Part shown: positions 2,151 to 15,082 of the stretch, piece by piece
Numbering within the stretch: the first letter of the stretch is position 1
Layout: each line of letters begins with the position of its first letter
Virus record (IMG/VR): IMGVR_UViG_3300034980_000081
Span: 1-27,081 of that record
Strand: one strand, 5' to 3'
From: a virus
Length of the DNA stretch: 27,081 bases
Program-made: the position numbers and the translations under genes
The notes under the pieces: model-generated
What the model saw: the letters and a program-made list of their open reading frames with translations, nothing else
The model's database searches: none
What the model was told of the DNA's origin: nothing

Positions 2151-2180
2151 ATATATATATATATATATTATACTATATAT
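2151..2180. repeat. TA dinucleotide tract
   Basis: Nearly pure alternating AT over 30 bases, overlapping the last codons of the smaller amidoligase gene (stop TAG at 2175-2173). It is self-complementary. A similar tract lies downstream of the related promoter at 11386. Confidence 0.6.
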
Positions 2181-3327
2181 ACCGAAAGTTAATTTCATTG
2201 TCCATGTACTGTCTTGATTCCTCCGTACTTGGGCGGTCAAATTTGCACACTCTCCTTAGTATATAATATTTTATGGCATCAAGTTCAAGTATTTCTATAA
2301 ACGCTTGTAAGCCTAAATCTCCGTCAGCATTCATAAGTAAGTGCGTGTTAGCATCCCAATCTTCAGGTTTCTTATCAAACTCCCTGCTTAGTGCTATGCC
2401 TTTTTCTACTATTGACTGGCACATAGTAATCCAGTTCTTAATTTTTGTAGGATTATTAGTTCCAGAATGATATCTAAACTCTATAGTTCCAAGATATACC
2501 CTTGCGTGTAAGTTGAGACCTTGATATCTTGCATCATTATACTTGTCAAGCGAGGGGTATTCGTCGCAGTGATTGTAATAGCTGCCAATAAAATCAGAGT
2601 CTGATTGTAAAGCCTTTATTGCATTTACAGACATATTTATACTCTTACACCAATTACTATCATACCTTCTACTTGGCAACATACTAAATATAGTAGACTC
2701 AAAAGCCCTTGTTACGAGCATTATACCCTTTAATTCTTTATAATATAAATCTCTTGCATCAATGTGTATATGTAATCCGCAAGTTTTGTTTATTCTAAAT
2801 TCCTCTCTGCGAAGCCAGGCTCCCATCTTATCTATTTCACTAAATAATGTATCTCCACACATAGGTTGAGATATAAATTCATATCCACCATAATCCTCAT
2901 CAGAAGTGCAGACACTTCCGTCACTTGATGTGTAAAACGAGTCTGGCTTACCATGAGGATTGTAATCACGATGCCCGAGATTTTCTATCTCAACACCTAC
3001 AAATCTTTCAAATTTGTTGTGCTCAAATGTGGTATTTTCTGGTGGATTGTAAACACTAAGAGAATTATCAAAAGAGTTTAAATCTACATCCTCATGTCTG
3101 CTGTCCCAGCAATAATTACAATAGGTATATCCATTGTCATCGTTGTTTGCATACTCGTATTCAATTACCTCTCCACAATCCTCACACTGAGTGAATACCT
3201 CATTGTAACAATCTTCACAATAGAGCCCGTCATCGAGACCACGAAGCTCATACCGTTCCTCTATTTCACGATCACAGCAACAACACTCTCCGATTATCTT
3301 TGGTTTTTGTACAGAATCTGGTGGCAT
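2173..3327 (-). CDS. Amidoligase (Amidoligase_2 family) with N-terminal zinc ribbons
   Basis: This 384-residue protein belongs to the glutamine-synthetase-like COOH-NH2 ligases, which use ATP to join a carboxylate to an amine or ammonia. Two zinc ribbons come first, with CxxC pairs at about C15/C18, C37/C40, C48/C51 and C70/C73. The ligase domain follows: GVEIE near 111-115 (metal-binding acidic strand), YEFISQP near 149, CGLHIHID near 183-190, and a long block near 267-290 containing LNLHARVYLG and TIEFRYHSG. The ATG at 3327 has AGGAGG five bases upstream. It is a shorter paralogue of the 606-residue protein two genes upstream, and a class II glutamine amidotransferase gene lies between them. 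The ligated substrate cannot be read from the sequence. Confidence 0.82.
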   Translation of the reverse strand: MPPDSVQKPKIIGECCCCDREIEERYELRGLDDGLYCEDCYNEVFTQCEDCGEVIEYEYANNDDNGYTYCNYCWDSRHEDVDLNSFDNSLSVYNPPENTTFEHNKFERFVGVEIENLGHRDYNPHGKPDSFYTSSDGSVCTSDEDYGGYEFISQPMCGDTLFSEIDKMGAWLRREEFRINKTCGLHIHIDARDLYYKELKGIMLVTRAFESTIFSMLPSRRYDSNWCKSINMSVNAIKALQSDSDFIGSYYNHCDEYPSLDKYNDARYQGLNLHARVYLGTIEFRYHSGTNNPTKIKNWITMCQSIVEKGIALSREFDKKPEDWDANTHLLMNADGDLGLQAFIEILELDAIKYYILRRVCKFDRPSTEESRQYMDNEINFRYI

Positions 3328-3335
3328 AATACCTC

Positions 3336-3635
3336 CTATGCTATACCATAATTAGCTGTAACTATATACACAGCCAGTACACTTATCTCTTTCAGCCACC
3401 CAAGGCTCTTAAGAGAATTATACATTTCTTCTTCGTTAGAAGCTGTAATTTCCACACCCTCTAAATCTCTAACTTGAGACTTAATGTGCTCCATATACTC
3501 TTCAAATGTCTTATCAGCAATAAACGGATTTTTCCTGGCACGTTTATAGAGCATGTTCATTACATATCTTTTTGATTTTATCTGTATCGGGTCAGCTATG
3601 CCGACAAATACAGCTTTTTTCTTTTTCTTTACCAT
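3336..3635 (-). CDS. Hypothetical protein in the amidoligase cassette
   Basis: I do not recognise this 99-residue protein. It begins with a run of lysines (MVKKKKKAVFVG), is basic in the first half (IKSKRYVMNMLYKRARKN) and ends in a hydrophobic stretch, ISVLAVYIVTANYGIA, which is short for a membrane helix. No cysteines or nuclease motifs are seen. AAGGAA precedes the ATG. It lies seven bases after the amidotransferase gene and eight before the second amidoligase, so it is almost certainly co-translated with them. It could be an acceptor, an adaptor or a small regulatory subunit of the cassette; nothing in the sequence decides between these. Confidence 0.65.
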   Translation of the reverse strand: MVKKKKKAVFVGIADPIQIKSKRYVMNMLYKRARKNPFIADKTFEEYMEHIKSQVRDLEGVEITASNEEEMYNSLKSLGWLKEISVLAVYIVTANYGIA

Positions 3636-3642
3636 AAATTCC

Positions 3643-4848
3643 TTATCCTAAAACCGCTGGGAGATTAGTTTTATCACCGTTTTTACGATTATATTCAGCA
3701 TCATAGCAATATTTACAGAGACCATATCCCTCAGTATATCTCATATCGATTACCGCTACACCATCTCCGCAAAAATCACAACTGTGCATCTTCTCTTCTA
3801 CAACTTGAGCTGTAGAGGATTTTATGTATCCTGAGTTAAATCCACAGGTTTTACATATATACCCACCTTGAGTATCGTATGCGAGATCGTCATAGAACAC
3901 ATCCATATTACAATCAGTACACCTTGCCATCCAGTCGCCATTATTGTCCATTTTAAGCTGTTTTTCTGGCTTATCTGCACATTGGTAGCAAATAGAATCT
4001 GCCCTGTAAGTCGTTGCATGACAAAGTTTACACCTTTTAGCTGAACTACCGTAGTTATTAGAACCGTGGCTCCAACCTCCGTGATAGTAACCAATATTAG
4101 AATATTTATTCCAATTCTCATTGGTTTCTACTTTAGTTTCCTTTGGTTCTAAGCTCTTCCAGAACACAGAAGTATCGTATTCATATACAGTGTCTATTGG
4201 AAGAGAATATACATCTATTACAAGACCAGCAGATTTAAGTGCTTCCTCCATAATATCAGCAGTGGATGCCCAAAACAGACATCTCGCTTTCTTCCAATAT
4301 GCTATATGAAGAGGTCTACCATCTTCGTGCATAAGATTAATCGTCTGATAATCTTCATTTACCCAACTCAGTGCATAATCTCCTTCAAGTAAATCAAACA
4401 CATCTTGATATTTATCTTTTTTGTTGAGCAGCCCGAATATTACCTCAGAATCCACTTGAACATTTTTACCAATTTTACTGGCTATATCTTTATGGTTGTA
4501 TATTACACCATTATGAGCGCCAATAACACTCCCCTTAGTAAAAGGATGAGCGTTTTGTATGTTAATCGTTCCGTGGGTCGCAAATCTCACATGCCCCATA
4601 AAGACGGTAGTGTCTCTATCAACTTTTTCCAGAATCCCATTCCATTCATTACTGCATACAAGTTCATCTGATTGTTGAAGAGTTCTATATACTAACTTAT
4701 CCTCCTTAGAAACAATCGCAAGTCCAGTGGAGTCTTGTCCCCTGACTACGGATTCCCAAGTGAGATTAGTAATCACATCGTCTATTCGGCGCATCTGATC
4801 ATCGCTCTGCCAGCCTTCACGCTTGGCAAATCCGAATATTCCACACAT
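3643..4848 (-). CDS. Class II glutamine amidotransferase with three C-terminal zinc ribbons
   Basis: The protein starts MCGIFGFAKREG, so Cys2 becomes the N-terminal nucleophile after removal of Met. Further class II glutaminase motifs follow: RGQDSTG near 36-42, GHVRFATHG near 85-93, AHNGVIYNH near 111-119 and VDSEVIFGLL near 132-141. The domain releases ammonia from glutamine. It covers roughly residues 1-220 of 401. No synthetase domain follows. Instead there are three zinc ribbons with CxxC pairs at C273/C276-C287/C290, C310/C313-C332/C335 and C357/C360-C378/C381. The start ATG abuts the stop codon of the large amidoligase (TAAATG), with GAGGAAATG as binding site, so the two are translationally coupled. 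The ammonia would feed the flanking amidoligases. Confidence 0.85.
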   Translation of the reverse strand: MCGIFGFAKREGWQSDDQMRRIDDVITNLTWESVVRGQDSTGLAIVSKEDKLVYRTLQQSDELVCSNEWNGILEKVDRDTTVFMGHVRFATHGTINIQNAHPFTKGSVIGAHNGVIYNHKDIASKIGKNVQVDSEVIFGLLNKKDKYQDVFDLLEGDYALSWVNEDYQTINLMHEDGRPLHIAYWKKARCLFWASTADIMEEALKSAGLVIDVYSLPIDTVYEYDTSVFWKSLEPKETKVETNENWNKYSNIGYYHGGWSHGSNNYGSSAKRCKLCHATTYRADSICYQCADKPEKQLKMDNNGDWMARCTDCNMDVFYDDLAYDTQGGYICKTCGFNSGYIKSSTAQVVEEKMHSCDFCGDGVAVIDMRYTEGYGLCKYCYDAEYNRKNGDKTNLPAVLG

Positions 4849-6669
4849 TTACATTTCCTCTCTTTCTTCTATCATATTATCTACTAATGGGTCTGACATT
4901 ATATCACGCAGAAACTCTGCCTGCGACTGATTTCGTGCATTTTCCCATGAACCACTCGTTACTTCTTCAGCCCCTTTTTCAATAATATGGGCATCTGCAT
5001 TTCTCTCTCTCAATTCCTCTACATAAGGAATTAAATCATCCATATTCATAGCAGATAAGTAATCGCTGAAGTCGTTTGACTCATTTTTAATAAATAAATT
5101 CTTTATCTTATCATCTCTCTCTAAAAATCTTGCACCAAAATCTGACATACCTAAGCAGAAAGCCATCCATTTAGTTATAAAGTAACTATTTAGAGTTCCA
5201 TGATGATATCTGTACTCTATAGTGCCGTGTAAAAATCTTGAGTGTATATTTAATCCTCTATATCTTGACGAATTATATTTATCTGTCGTTGCCTCTGTGC
5301 TATTCATACTCTCATACCATAAAACAGACAAATCTTTTGCAGAAGAGATACTAAGTATATCATCAGATGTAATTCCATCATCCATAGGTGGTGAATATCT
5401 GTTTTTACTTCTGTTTGGTGGCAACATATCATAAATAAAAGGCTCTAAAGCTTTAACAGTCAATAATATACCTTTAAGTCCTTGTACTCCTATGTAATAG
5501 CCATCAGTATGCACATGGAGACCACAACTATTATTGACATAAAAATCATTATCATTTGCCCACAAGCAAAAGGATTTAACCAGTGCAAATGCATCATCTC
5601 CTATTTCTGGAACCATAATAAATTCTCTACCAGATTCATCGTCTATCGAGGTATCGTGGACATCAGTCCATCCAGTAGGGTAGCCATCCCAGCTAATATC
5701 ATCATTAAATTCAGGTATGGCTTCTATCTCTACTGCCACTGGAGTTCTACTTCTATTCATACCATACAATTTATCTGGTGGTATACTTAATTTTGCTAAT
5801 ATATCTCGCCTCAACATTCTTGGAGGACTAGTTAAAATACTTGTTGCTCTGTTATTATAGCAGGGGTCGCAATACCTTACTCCGTCATAATTAAAACTTT
5901 TTTTGTCTGAAAATGACCTATTACAGCTATTACATTTGAATACTCGTTCATCATAACAGTAGCGACAAACGAGTTCTCCTTCATAATATCTGGATGGAAC
6001 TCGACGCAGTTGAATTGTCTTATGACACCATTCACAATCATACTCGTGTGTTCTCTGACAAGGTTCGCAAAGACTACCTATACCTTGAGCCTTATAAAGT
6101 TCATCCTCTCTCATCCACTCGCTGCAATCTATACATCTTTCTAAACGGTCTGGAATAAAATCTTCTATATTTGCTATCTTTCTCAAAAACTTCCGAACTA
6201 CTGTTTGAGGAAGCGAGGTTAATCTTTCTTCCGTTAATGGAGAAATACTATCTCTATAATCTTCTAAACAGATTCTCCAATTTCCTCTGTTCGGTGTTAA
6301 AACTTTTAAATATGCTAATCCCTCGATAGTTTCGAAAGCCCGAAGTAAAGCGAGATCAGATGTTTCATCCCTCATTCTGGGATGGTTTATCCTTATTATC
6401 TGTCTAAGTCTTAATTCAGTACTATCGGATATAACAGCAATTTGTTGCCAGAATAAATTTCTTTTTTCAGTTACAGAATATGGCTCAGTATCGGTTGAAC
6501 CTGAATCTGAGTATGTAATCTCAAATTCAGCCTTATATTTATAAGGATTATCTTCTCTTGAGCTTACATTTACAATAGTTCCTAAATAATCTCTGTAAAC
6601 AGTGCTATCATCTACAGAACCTGACCTAAGAAAGAGTACTCTGTCGCCCTCGTTAAATTTAACTGACAA
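4849..6669 (-). CDS. Large amidoligase (Amidoligase_2 family) with central zinc ribbons
   Basis: This 606-residue protein is the larger of two amidoligase paralogues. Residues 1-75 look like a small beta-barrel (GDRVLFLRSG, then YLGTIVNV), similar to KOW/Tudor-type folds. Three zinc ribbons follow, with CxxC pairs at C179/C182-C201/C204, C212/C215-C235/C238 and C246/C249-C267/C270. The ligase domain spans about 305-510: VAVEIEAIPEF near 311-321, CGLHVHTDG near 382-390, and near 469-492 a block with GLNIHSRFLHG and TIEYRYHHGT. The tail beyond about 510 is charged and helical. Translation starts at TTG (6669) behind GGAG; no suitable ATG exists. It is the first gene of its operon, behind a promoter at 6819-6848. 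The substrate is unknown; ammonia from the next gene is a natural nitrogen source. Confidence 0.83.
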   Translation of the reverse strand: MSVKFNEGDRVLFLRSGSVDDSTVYRDYLGTIVNVSSREDNPYKYKAEFEITYSDSGSTDTEPYSVTEKRNLFWQQIAVISDSTELRLRQIIRINHPRMRDETSDLALLRAFETIEGLAYLKVLTPNRGNWRICLEDYRDSISPLTEERLTSLPQTVVRKFLRKIANIEDFIPDRLERCIDCSEWMREDELYKAQGIGSLCEPCQRTHEYDCEWCHKTIQLRRVPSRYYEGELVCRYCYDERVFKCNSCNRSFSDKKSFNYDGVRYCDPCYNNRATSILTSPPRMLRRDILAKLSIPPDKLYGMNRSRTPVAVEIEAIPEFNDDISWDGYPTGWTDVHDTSIDDESGREFIMVPEIGDDAFALVKSFCLWANDNDFYVNNSCGLHVHTDGYYIGVQGLKGILLTVKALEPFIYDMLPPNRSKNRYSPPMDDGITSDDILSISSAKDLSVLWYESMNSTEATTDKYNSSRYRGLNIHSRFLHGTIEYRYHHGTLNSYFITKWMAFCLGMSDFGARFLERDDKIKNLFIKNESNDFSDYLSAMNMDDLIPYVEELRERNADAHIIEKGAEEVTSGSWENARNQSQAEFLRDIMSDPLVDNMIEEREEM

Positions 6670-6818
6670 AATATCTCCTTATTGATTTAAAGCAAACTAT
6701 AATGCTCGAGATGAATGTGCCTCCATAAAAAATATAATGAGGCTCACCACAAAGTCCGAGCAAGTGTTTAATTATCTCTTTCACAAAATCCAAATTTTAT
6801 ACCTCTTTCCGATACGGA

Positions 6819-6848
6819 AATATACGACCAAAAAATCATAAAAGTCAA
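6819..6848 (-). promoter_or_regulatory. Promoter of the amidoligase operon
   Basis: On the minus strand TTGACT (6848-6843) and TATATT (6824-6819) with an 18-base spacer. It is the only good promoter between the small-gene cluster and the amidoligase genes, so the cassette can be expressed separately from the upstream genes. Confidence 0.6.
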
Positions 6849-6886
6849 GTCTTTTCTTTTAGAGATAAAAATAATTTTAGAGCGCT

Positions 6887-6940
6887 CCATTACCCTCTGT
6901 CCGAGCAAATTTCGCTTCATTACGCTCTGTATTACGCTCT
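6887..6940 (-). repeat. Three 12-base direct repeats, possible regulator sites
   Basis: Minus-strand copies AGAGCGTAATAC (6940-6929), AGAGCGTAATGA (6928-6917) and AGAGGGTAATGG (6898-6887). They lie 39-97 bases upstream of the -35 box of the amidoligase promoter. The position suits an activator, but this is inference. Confidence 0.45.
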
Positions 6941-7041
6941 CTATAAAGAACGGAGTATGCCTTATTATTCTCTGGAACGATGGATTCCGAGGACGGCTGG
7001 CTCAGTTTTTGTGGACAATATATTTCAATCTCCTTCTATTT

Positions 7042-7390: not shown

Positions 7391-7831
7391 TCAGAAATTT
7401 CCGTCTGCTACTTGAAAACAAGGTAGCCCTAATTCTCTCCACATATCCACTACTGGACATTTTTCAGAGTTTCTATCATCGAGAACAAATAGGATTTCAT
7501 ACTTTCCTTTTACATTCTCTTCATATAACTCTCTTTTGATTATAGTATCACTTCTAAAATCATCAGTAGTACGCATAAAGAGTGGACATCCATCAAAACC
7601 ATACTTCTCCAAAAATTCCTGAGTTGGTTCTCTGTCCTTTTCTTGACGACCAGATACAAATATAATATCAAATTCTGGACTACCTAAATTATAGTCTTGA
7701 GCCATATTCAAAACAAGCTGAACAGGTTCATTAATATTATCTAAGTCGCAAGTAGAAGCATCATACCAATCTCTTCCATCGTGTTTAAGAGCTAGCGTTC
7801 CGTCAATATCACATATGATTGCTTGCTGCAT
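7391..7831 (-). CDS. Polynucleotide 3'-phosphatase (HAD family, T4 PNK phosphatase-like)
   Basis: This 146-residue protein is a stand-alone version of the phosphatase domain of T4 polynucleotide kinase, which removes 3'-phosphates from nucleic acid ends so that they can be ligated or extended. The HAD motifs are clear: D8-x-D10-G-T (nucleophile and acid), VSGR at 59-62, Lys99 in IIKRELYEE, and VLDDRN at 117-121. The ending GLPCFQVADGNF also fits phage members of the family. No kinase domain or P-loop is fused to it or adjacent. The ATG at 7831 lies behind AAGGAGGTGAT. The family assignment is firm; whether the substrate is DNA or RNA is not visible. Confidence 0.85.
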   Translation of the reverse strand: MQQAIICDIDGTLALKHDGRDWYDASTCDLDNINEPVQLVLNMAQDYNLGSPEFDIIFVSGRQEKDREPTQEFLEKYGFDGCPLFMRTTDDFRSDTIIKRELYEENVKGKYEILFVLDDRNSEKCPVVDMWRELGLPCFQVADGNF

Positions 7832-11867: not shown

Positions 11868-12148
11868 ACATAGGTGGTCATGAGTATAAGGTAAAGTTCA
11901 TGGATGGCGATAGAAAAGGCGAAGAAAACAAAATGCTCTTCGGAATGAACAATCCACGTACTTGTGAGATATTCTTAGATGAGAAGCTTGTTACATCAAG
12001 AAGGAACGAAACTTTCTTGCATGAAGTAATTCACGTTATTCTCGTAAATACTGGCTCCCCACATGATGAAGGGCTTATCGAGAGTCTTGCGAATGGATTC
12101 CATCAACTAGGAGTAGGAGATTATCTATGGCGGAAAGTAAGCAAATAG
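11855..12148 (+). CDS. HExxH metallopeptidase-like protein (ImmA/IrrE-like)
   Basis: This 97-residue protein has a zinc-peptidase core: H56-E57-V-I-H60 in FLHEVIHVIL, and a candidate third ligand Glu76 in HDEGLIESLANGF, 16 residues later. It is thus a minimal gluzincin-like domain like the ones in phage ImmA/IrrE-related proteins. In those families the peptidase cleaves a repressor or other regulator. Residues 1-50 form strands (INIGGHEYKVKF, then ARKs absent and CEIFLDEKL). The ATG at 11855 has AAGGAG eight bases upstream. No partner repressor gene is seen, so the target is open. Confidence 0.7.
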   Translation: MRKINIGGHEYKVKFMDGDRKGEENKMLFGMNNPRTCEIFLDEKLVTSRRNETFLHEVIHVILVNTGSPHDEGLIESLANGFHQLGVGDYLWRKVSK

Positions 12149-12480
12149 TAAGATCAATAGAAAAAGCCTATCCAGAGATGATGGAAAGGTTTGAAGCTAT
12201 TACTGGAGAGCAATATGAATTGTTCTGCCGAAAGCAGTATGACTACGGTTGTGCAAATATAACGCTTGGTGGCGATTTGAATGATGATGAAGATAGAATG
12301 TTTGCACTTACTGCTTTGGTCATAAGAATGAATGACAAGGTGAATCGGCTTAAAAACATAATTGTAAAGCATAGAGGCGAAAATGCGGTACGTGATGAAA
12401 CATACATGGATGCTTTCAAGGATTTGTCGGTTTACGGAGTAATCGCACAATTAGTTGCAGAAAAGGTATGGGGCAAATGA
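12127..12480 (+). CDS. DUF1599/Nmad1-like protein
   Basis: This 117-residue protein carries the pattern of the DUF1599 family, also called nucleotide modification associated domain 1: RKQYDYGCANITLGGD, then a helix ALVIRMNDKVNRLKNI, then VRDETYMDAFKDLSVYGVIA. Members are small alpha-helical proteins common in phages; the association with modified nucleotides comes from gene neighbourhoods, and a catalytic activity is not well defined. The ATG at 12127 lies inside the end of the peptidase-like gene (22-base overlap). A 76-base gap follows without any clear signal. No base-modifying enzyme is seen in the window. Confidence 0.72.
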   Translation: MAESKQIVRSIEKAYPEMMERFEAITGEQYELFCRKQYDYGCANITLGGDLNDDEDRMFALTALVIRMNDKVNRLKNIIVKHRGENAVRDETYMDAFKDLSVYGVIAQLVAEKVWGK

Positions 12481-14489: not shown

Positions 14490-14735
14490 ATGAAAACTGT
14501 TAAATTTGATCTAGTACTAAAAGTACATGATGATTTGAAAGAAGATGAATTGAAGAAGTCTTTGGATGATTATATGATAAATGATAATGTTGCCAGCAAT
14601 GTTGTTCAGCGAGTTATCAGTGAACCAGGTGCTCCAGAGAATTTTTCTATAATTTCAATGGAATTAAAGAAAAAGAGAAAGATTAAAAAGAATACCGTAC
14701 AAAGTAGTGGGAAAAACGGTATGCTTCAAAAATGA
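14490..14735 (+). CDS. Hypothetical protein (81 aa)
   Basis: The ATG follows the previous stop without a gap (TAAATG), with GGAGAAG upstream. The product begins with a strand (MKTVKFDLVLKVHDDLKEDE), has a helix (LKKSLDDYMI), a second helix (SNVVQRVISEP), a strand (NFSIISMELKKK) and a basic, disordered tail. This beta-alpha-alpha-beta order is seen in many small phage proteins; no family is recognised. It overlaps the cyclotransferase-like gene by four bases. Confidence 0.6.
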   Translation: MKTVKFDLVLKVHDDLKEDELKKSLDDYMINDNVASNVVQRVISEPGAPENFSIISMELKKKRKIKKNTVQSSGKNGMLQK

Positions 14736-15082
14736 AGCTTGCGGTATACGGAACTCTTCGTAATGGAAGTAAGGATACTGGAAGAATAGAAAATACTTCT
14801 CTTGTTTATCCTGGGCATCAAAGGTTTCCTGCTGTAATACAGGACTATGAAGGTAAAGGTACTGTGGTAGAGATTCATGATGTAACTAGCGAAGATATTG
14901 CTCAGTATGATTTGTATGAAGGTCTTGCTATTGGTCTTTACGATAGGGTTAAAGTTAAAGTAAATATGGATAAAGGCGAAGAAGTGGAAGCTTGGGCATA
15001 TGTTGCTGGCCCACGCCTTCTTAAATTAGTAGATGTTTTTGAGGAAATTCCAAATGGAGACTGGAATGATAGAAAACTTTAA
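14732..15082 (+). CDS. Gamma-glutamylcyclotransferase-like protein (GGCT/AIG2 fold)
   Basis: This 116-residue protein has the signature YGTLRNG at residues 6-12, the GHQRFPAVI strand near 28-36, and Glu63 in DLYEGL, which matches the catalytic acid of the family, followed by YDRVKVKV. Family members release a gamma-glutamyl group from an amine as 5-oxoproline. The ATG overlaps the previous stop (ATGA). It lies just before the large terminase gene and overlaps its start. This placement is unusual for a metabolic enzyme. It may act on gamma-glutamyl products of the amidoligase cassette at 2173-6669; this link is inference from chemistry only. Confidence 0.8.
   Translation: MKLAVYGTLRNGSKDTGRIENTSLVYPGHQRFPAVIQDYEGKGTVVEIHDVTSEDIAQYDLYEGLAIGLYDRVKVKVNMDKGEEVEAWAYVAGPRLLKLVDVFEEIPNGDWNDRKL

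Follow-up and report, generated by a model that had tools for sequence, protein, structure and literature searches.

Organization of the cassette

The window, meaning the whole stretch of DNA analyzed here, is the IMG/VR record IMGVR_UViG_3300034980_000081, a linear viral fragment of 27,081 nt. Four genes follow one another on its minus strand in the order AMDL2, GAT, P99 and AMDL1, with spacers of 0, 7 and 8 bp and Shine-Dalgarno-like sequences; the coordinates, strand and tight spacing of these open reading frames in the original prediction were thus borne out. AMDL2 (4849..6669) has a TTG start and encodes a 606-aa protein in which an N-terminal extension and tandem CxxC zinc-finger (LIM-like) modules precede a C-terminal Amidoligase_2 domain. 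GAT (3643..4848) encodes a 401-aa class II glutamine amidotransferase (Ntn glutaminase) with C-terminal CxxC pairs, P99 (3336..3635) a 99-aa partner protein of no known family, and AMDL1 (2173..3327) a 384-aa protein in which two N-terminal CxxC zinc-finger (LIM-like) modules accompany an Amidoligase_2 domain. A comparison of the window with its nearest relative gave dN/dS values of 0.25 for AMDL2, 0.24 for GAT, 0.08 for P99 and 0.18 for AMDL1, which places all four cassette genes under purifying selection. A fifth gene, GGACT (14732..15082, plus strand), encodes a 116-aa gamma-glutamyl(amine) cyclotransferase of the AIG2/BtrG-like type (PF06094) and was overlooked in the original prediction. 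PADLOC detected no defense family, Rfam gave no match, and megablast against INPHARED gave no match.

The leader upstream of AMDL2 (6670..7041, minus strand) is highly conserved with the nearest relative. The cassette had been proposed to stand behind one promoter. The sequence TTGACT-18-TATATT at 6848-6819, a consensus match only, is compatible with this; the region holds 31 promoter-like matches in all, against 23.6 +/- 4.6 in shuffles, and a single promoter stays a tentative assignment. Upstream of the promoter-like site, three 12-nt direct repeats are found at 6889-6942 (ATTAC[G/C]CTCT[G/C]T on the plus strand, ACAGAG[C/G]GTAAT-like on the minus strand); they are a possible operator. An 18-codon frame on the minus strand (7018-6965) follows AAGGAG, begins with TTG and ends with TAA, with the peptide STKTEPAVLGIHRSRE following the start; to judge from its sequence, it may be a leader peptide or a chance occurrence. 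Further upstream of the cassette, 7391-7831 (minus strand) encodes a polynucleotide kinase phosphatase-domain protein (HAD_PNKP, 1.8e-40) without the kinase domain.

The two amidoligases

Both ligases exceed the Pfam cut-off of 22 for PF12224 (AMDL1, 74.1 bits, 2.1e-20; AMDL2, 75.6 bits, 7.1e-21) and are about 30% identical to each other, so the description of them as two Amidoligase_2-type paralogs holds. PHROGs assignments agree with Pfam for the ligases and for the glutaminase. In AMDL1, the Amidoligase_2 domain covers about residues 105-315 and the zinc-finger modules residues 15-73; in AMDL2, the domain lies at about 311-510 and the tandem CxxC modules at about 179-270. The resemblance to LIM domains comes from a profile of both ligases, which matches LIM structures at 8e-4, and the CxxC pairs are nearly invariant; the Pfam LIM family (PF00412) itself scores 17 bits on AMDL2, below its cut-off of 22.9. 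In a phylogenetic tree, AMDL1 and AMDL2 share one clade, separate from PF14395-type amidoligases (support 87), a topology that leaves a single origin of AMDL2 undecided.

The AF2 model of AMDL1 has a pLDDT of 83.6. For its residues 100-369, the nearest solved folds are YbdK (Z 13.2, 227 aligned residues, rmsd 3.9), plant glutamate-cysteine ligase (GCL; Z 12.6) and glutamine synthetases (Z about 11). AMDL1 thus models as a glutamine-synthetase/glutamate-cysteine-ligase fold. It shares the overall fold of the ligase domain with this superfamily, whereas identity is about 10% and the zinc modules are an addition in AMDL1. The predicted catalytic residues E113, E115, D136, S138, E150, H186, H188, R221, N272, E283 and R285 are invariant in all 50 relatives of AMDL1. 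The same applies to E314, E316, D339, S341, E349, H385, H387, R420, N474, E485 and R487 of AMDL2, again in 50 of 50 relatives.

The glutaminase and the cyclotransferase

GAT matches GATase_6 (PF13522) with 58.8 bits (7.3e-16; Pfam cut-off 27), and its profile matches the glutaminase domain of GlmS in the PDB at 8.7e-12. The protein begins with Met-Cys-Gly, placing the nucleophile Cys directly after Met, and carries no fused synthase, in line with the original prediction. In all 57 proteins compared, residues C2, R88, N113, G114 and D133 are unchanged. A match to the EgtC family TIGR03442 was also obtained (2.8e-7); GAT is nearer to the GlmS/PurF glutaminases than to EgtC. The original prediction had staked itself on a glutamine-synthetase-like fold, the catalytic acids and Cys2; the modeled fold of AMDL1, the acids and Cys2 are all kept.

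Fusions of an amidoligase with GAT occur in three other phage contigs, and fusions of GAT with GGACT in two. In the latter two (L087:279-1136 and L112:3347-4222), a gamma-glutamyl cyclotransferase domain is joined to a short GAT-II-like domain that begins Met-Cys-Leu, and an amidoligase gene lies close by. In a group of viral contigs, GAT is fused to the ligase in L135:5144-7438, L064:7127-9901 and L031:5679-8747 and stands alone in L042:7319-8347. A strongly hydrophobic segment precedes GAT in this group and ends at the catalytic Cys or immediately ahead of it (..ALLVGCGIGAIH.., ..ILVNCGIGAYH..); it resembles a lipobox or a signal-peptide cleavage site, and an N-terminal hydrophobic segment is found on the ligase part as well. 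These sequence features suggest membrane-bound relatives that may take an unusual route to an exposed N-terminal Cys.

GGACT matches PF06094 with 50.5 bits (3.9e-13; cut-off 22.8), and the YGTLR loop is present as YGTLRNG. The gene lies directly upstream of terL, overlapping the start of the terL open reading frame, and belongs to the late/packaging gene block, outside the cassette operon. Of the 50 contigs with the cassette, terL is present in 41, and GGACT occurs in exactly these 41, adjoining terL in every case. The GAT-GGACT fusions tie the cyclotransferase to the same pathway as the cassette.

The small protein P99

No significant match to P99 was found in Pfam, PHROGs or NCBIfam. The protein is 98% identical in the closest relative, and its dN/dS of 0.08 makes it the most strongly conserved of the four cassette genes. 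A scan with a P99 alignment detected homologs at 57 other viral loci (58 with the window), 35-98% identical and with the gene order kept. The conservation, the low dN/dS and these syntenic homologs indicate that P99 is a real gene. No relatives were found in INPHARED or among the 84,980 GTDB species genomes of bacteria and archaea, which accordingly give no hint of a host.

The motif KSKxYV..LY.RAKKNPF is conserved, Trp80 and the lysines K6, K22, K35 and K76 are invariant, and the C-terminus is hydrophobic. An AF2 model, uncertain at a pLDDT of 71, depicts a small, partly helical protein, with much of the conservation in or near the predicted helices. Foldseek searches of this model against the PDB and BFVD returned nothing at E <= 0.001, and the best Z score with VIA-align 2 was 2.6. 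A winged-helix-like fold appeared only in weak rows and was set aside. The small protein encoded between the COOH-NH2_lig and amidoligase genes of PA11-type cassettes showed no detectable relationship to P99 (hhalign probability 0.1%).

P99 had earlier been put forward as the acceptor of the ligation. The last residue is V, A, T, S or G, and there is no conserved terminal Glu, Gln or Gly; this variability gives no support to a C-terminal acceptor, and nothing else speaks positively for an acceptor role. P99 looks more like an obligate or adaptor subunit.

Distribution and core of the cassette

A scan with an amidoligase-motif pattern collected 120 viral stretches, several independent copies of the same cassette among them. 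The four-gene neighborhood survey called for in the original prediction was run on the P99 loci, and AMDL2-GAT-P99-AMDL1 was found at 52 of the 58, the window included; AMDL2 is missing at three others, which keep GAT-P99-AMDL1, and contig ends truncate the remaining three. Wherever the 58 loci were readable, P99 always had GAT on its upstream side and an amidoligase on its downstream side. Ten further loci, picked from single-ligase cassettes, all have GAT-P99-AMDL1 without AMDL2. Since the single-ligase loci keep all three of these genes, GAT-P99-AMDL1 is the core, and AMDL2 is an extra in part of the lineage. Two successive ligations, as once suggested by the presence of two ligases, are therefore not required: at 13 of the loci examined, GAT-P99-AMDL1 stands by itself.

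Clustering of the GAT proteins gives 34 groups at 90% identity and 24 at 70%, a diversity that excludes one phage sampled repeatedly. The terL proteins of cassette contigs are 64-97% identical to that of the window, from which it follows that the cassette belongs to one phage lineage; its cultured relatives are distant, with terL about 25% identical. When terL served as the starting point, 11 of 27 contigs carried an amidoligase, and exactly the same 11 carried GAT. Two long contigs that belong to this terL lineage (G064 and G067) showed neither AMDL nor GAT, and the cassette may thus not be universal in it. Synteny across this diverse lineage, together with the invariant catalytic residues and the amidoligase-glutaminase fusions elsewhere, upholds the view that the genes form one functional unit.

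Two contigs, G004 (IMGVR_UViG_3300030708_000851, 80 kb) and G034 (IMGVR_UViG_3300030101_002855, 64 kb), contain two GGACT/terL/cassette sets each, about 44-45 kb apart. This suggests that, in each case, a single contig joins two related phage genomes.

Comparison with known modules

Phage modules of amidoligases and class II glutaminases are better known than the original prediction implied. In the available text of the published accounts, they are named as peptidoglycan modification modules and are thought to block superinfection, a view resting on Iyer 2009 (PMC5498523, PMC10580990, PMC6256558, PMC11945000). Nitrogen metabolism has been proposed instead for such genes in a chronic phage of a planctomycete (PMC10945688). 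Within the same available text, no substrate or product is demonstrated for any module member (PMC5498523, PMC10580990, PMC6256558, PMC11945000, PMC10945688).

In PA11, phiEco32-type, Vibrio and Alcaligenes phages and in metagenomic podoviruses, an amidoligase, a PF14395 ligase, GAT-II and ATP-grasp occur together, mostly with a cyclotransferase. As in the PA11/phiEco32/LUZ24/RIO-1 module, the window combines a PF12224 ligase, a class II glutaminase and a gamma-glutamyl cyclotransferase as standalone proteins in one genome. The PA11/phiEco32-type cassette contains two ligases, as does that of the window, where the second is a PF12224 paralog. The PF14395 COOH-NH2 ligase was found in none of 50 cassette contigs including the window (control, 6 of 8 phages), and an ATP-grasp ligase in none of 31 contigs (control, 2 of 2), the window itself being a 27-kb fragment. 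With both absent, the window lineage represents a variant, not a member, of the PA11/phiEco32-type module, from which it also differs by the LIM-like zinc modules on its ligases, by P99 and by the position of GGACT beside terL.

In the LUZ24-like phage UFV-P2, the amidoligase and GAT are close together in the early module, as in the window cassette; UFV-P2 differs in having COOH-NH2_lig and ATP-grasp and an HNH gene that separates the amidoligase from GAT, and no P99-like gene is described for it (PMC3890496). The EgtA-EgtC pair of ergothioneine synthesis, a GCL-like ligase with a partner of GAT-II fold, resembles AMDL1 and GAT; it consists of bacterial biosynthesis genes, however, without P99 and without phage context. 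The main novelty of the current work is a LIM-type variant that contains P99, lacks PF14395 and occurs in a phage lineage not yet cultivated, with a second ligase in one subgroup.

Proposed function and alternatives

The reading we prefer, with a probability of roughly 0.45, is that the cassette represents a compact form of the phage amidoligase/class II glutaminase/gamma-glutamyl cyclotransferase module and acts during infection to modify a peptide made by the host, for instance the peptidoglycan stem. The fold, the catalytic residues, the strict co-occurrence and the purifying selection are the directly established parts of the mechanism. AMDL1, and in one subgroup AMDL2 as well, would convert a carboxylate, most probably the gamma-carboxylate of glutamate, into an acyl phosphate at the expense of ATP and would join it to an amine, by analogy with the chemistry of the GS/GCL superfamily. 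GAT, with its free N-terminal Cys, would be coupled to AMDL1 through P99 and would most likely supply ammonia from glutamine for amidation. GGACT would remove or edit gamma-glutamyl amides. An envelope target, for example the peptidoglycan stem peptide, would be the most likely purpose; the five window proteins show no TM-like segments and no other features pointing to contact with the envelope, which counts against it.

The arguments for this reading are the GS/GCL fold of AMDL1, the invariant residues in 57 GAT, 50 AMDL1 and 50 AMDL2 proteins, the unbroken GAT-P99-AMDL1 order, GGACT beside terL in 41 of 41 contigs, the fusions, and the same enzyme trio in other phages. In particular, the AMDL-GAT fusions in three contigs favor direct coupling and ammonia supply. 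Against it stand the location of GGACT outside the cassette operon, the two long contigs without AMDL or GAT, and the prospect that GAT acts as a gamma-glutamyl hydrolase instead of donating ammonia.

This last point leads to a possible but doubtful alternative, a cycle that makes and trims gamma-glutamyl groups on a peptide or small molecule, in which AMDL adds the group and both GAT, as a gamma-glutamyl hydrolase, and GGACT remove it. BtrJ adds a gamma-glutamyl group that BtrG removes, a pair to which AMDL and GGACT can be compared. GCL-like EgtA and EgtC, which has a class II GAT fold acting as an amidohydrolase, are a known pair (PMC9103826), and a Dug3-type GAT functions in glutathione breakdown (PMC12653102); both cases illustrate how a GAT-II fold can hydrolyze or process gamma-glutamyl compounds. 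The match of GAT to the EgtC family, the best folds of AMDL1 (GCL-type YbdK and plant GCL) and the existence of GAT-GGACT fusions fit such a cycle. However, GAT is nearer to the GlmS/PurF glutaminases, two enzymes taking off the same group would be redundant, and the ligase-GAT fusions of other phages suit channeling better.

A more far-reaching form of the preferred module reading, rather unlikely as a whole, would make P99 an obligate component of a novel type, which as adaptor or acceptor locks the glutaminase to the zinc-finger amidoligase; GAT-P99-AMDL1 would then be a minimal set of phage proteins that introduces a new amide modification into a host molecule, and AMDL2 would contribute a second step. 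That P99 is itself the substrate, a small carrier or tag comparable to Pup or LysW that receives a chain built or attached by the ligases, is improbable: its small size, obligatory place between GAT and AMDL1, unmatched conservation among the four genes and invariant lysines would suit that role, but the variable C-terminal residue speaks against it, and conservation lying largely in or near predicted helices is better suited to a structural subunit. Hypermodification of phage DNA bases or nucleotides by the ligases as an anti-restriction measure is very improbable, because two DNA methyltransferases in the early module of a 48-kb relative (G014) and a weak Nmad1-like match at 12127-12480 (E 0.0018, below cut-off) are outweighed by an enzyme set common to phages whose modules are read as peptide-modifying and by the lack of a base hydroxylase, hydroxymethylase or glycosyltransferase among the open reading frames of the window and G014 covered in a partial scan.

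Significance

According to the available text of a published account, phage amidoligase modules have been predicted since 2009 (Iyer 2009) (PMC5498523). The lineage described here carries a reduced version of such a module, a three-gene core of GAT-P99-AMDL1 plus the cyclotransferase. Phages with and without AMDL2 offer a natural comparison for the second ligase, and P99 is a small, cassette-specific protein usable as bait. Together, the reduced core, the natural comparison and the P99 bait make the target of the modification directly testable by co-expression and mass spectrometry.
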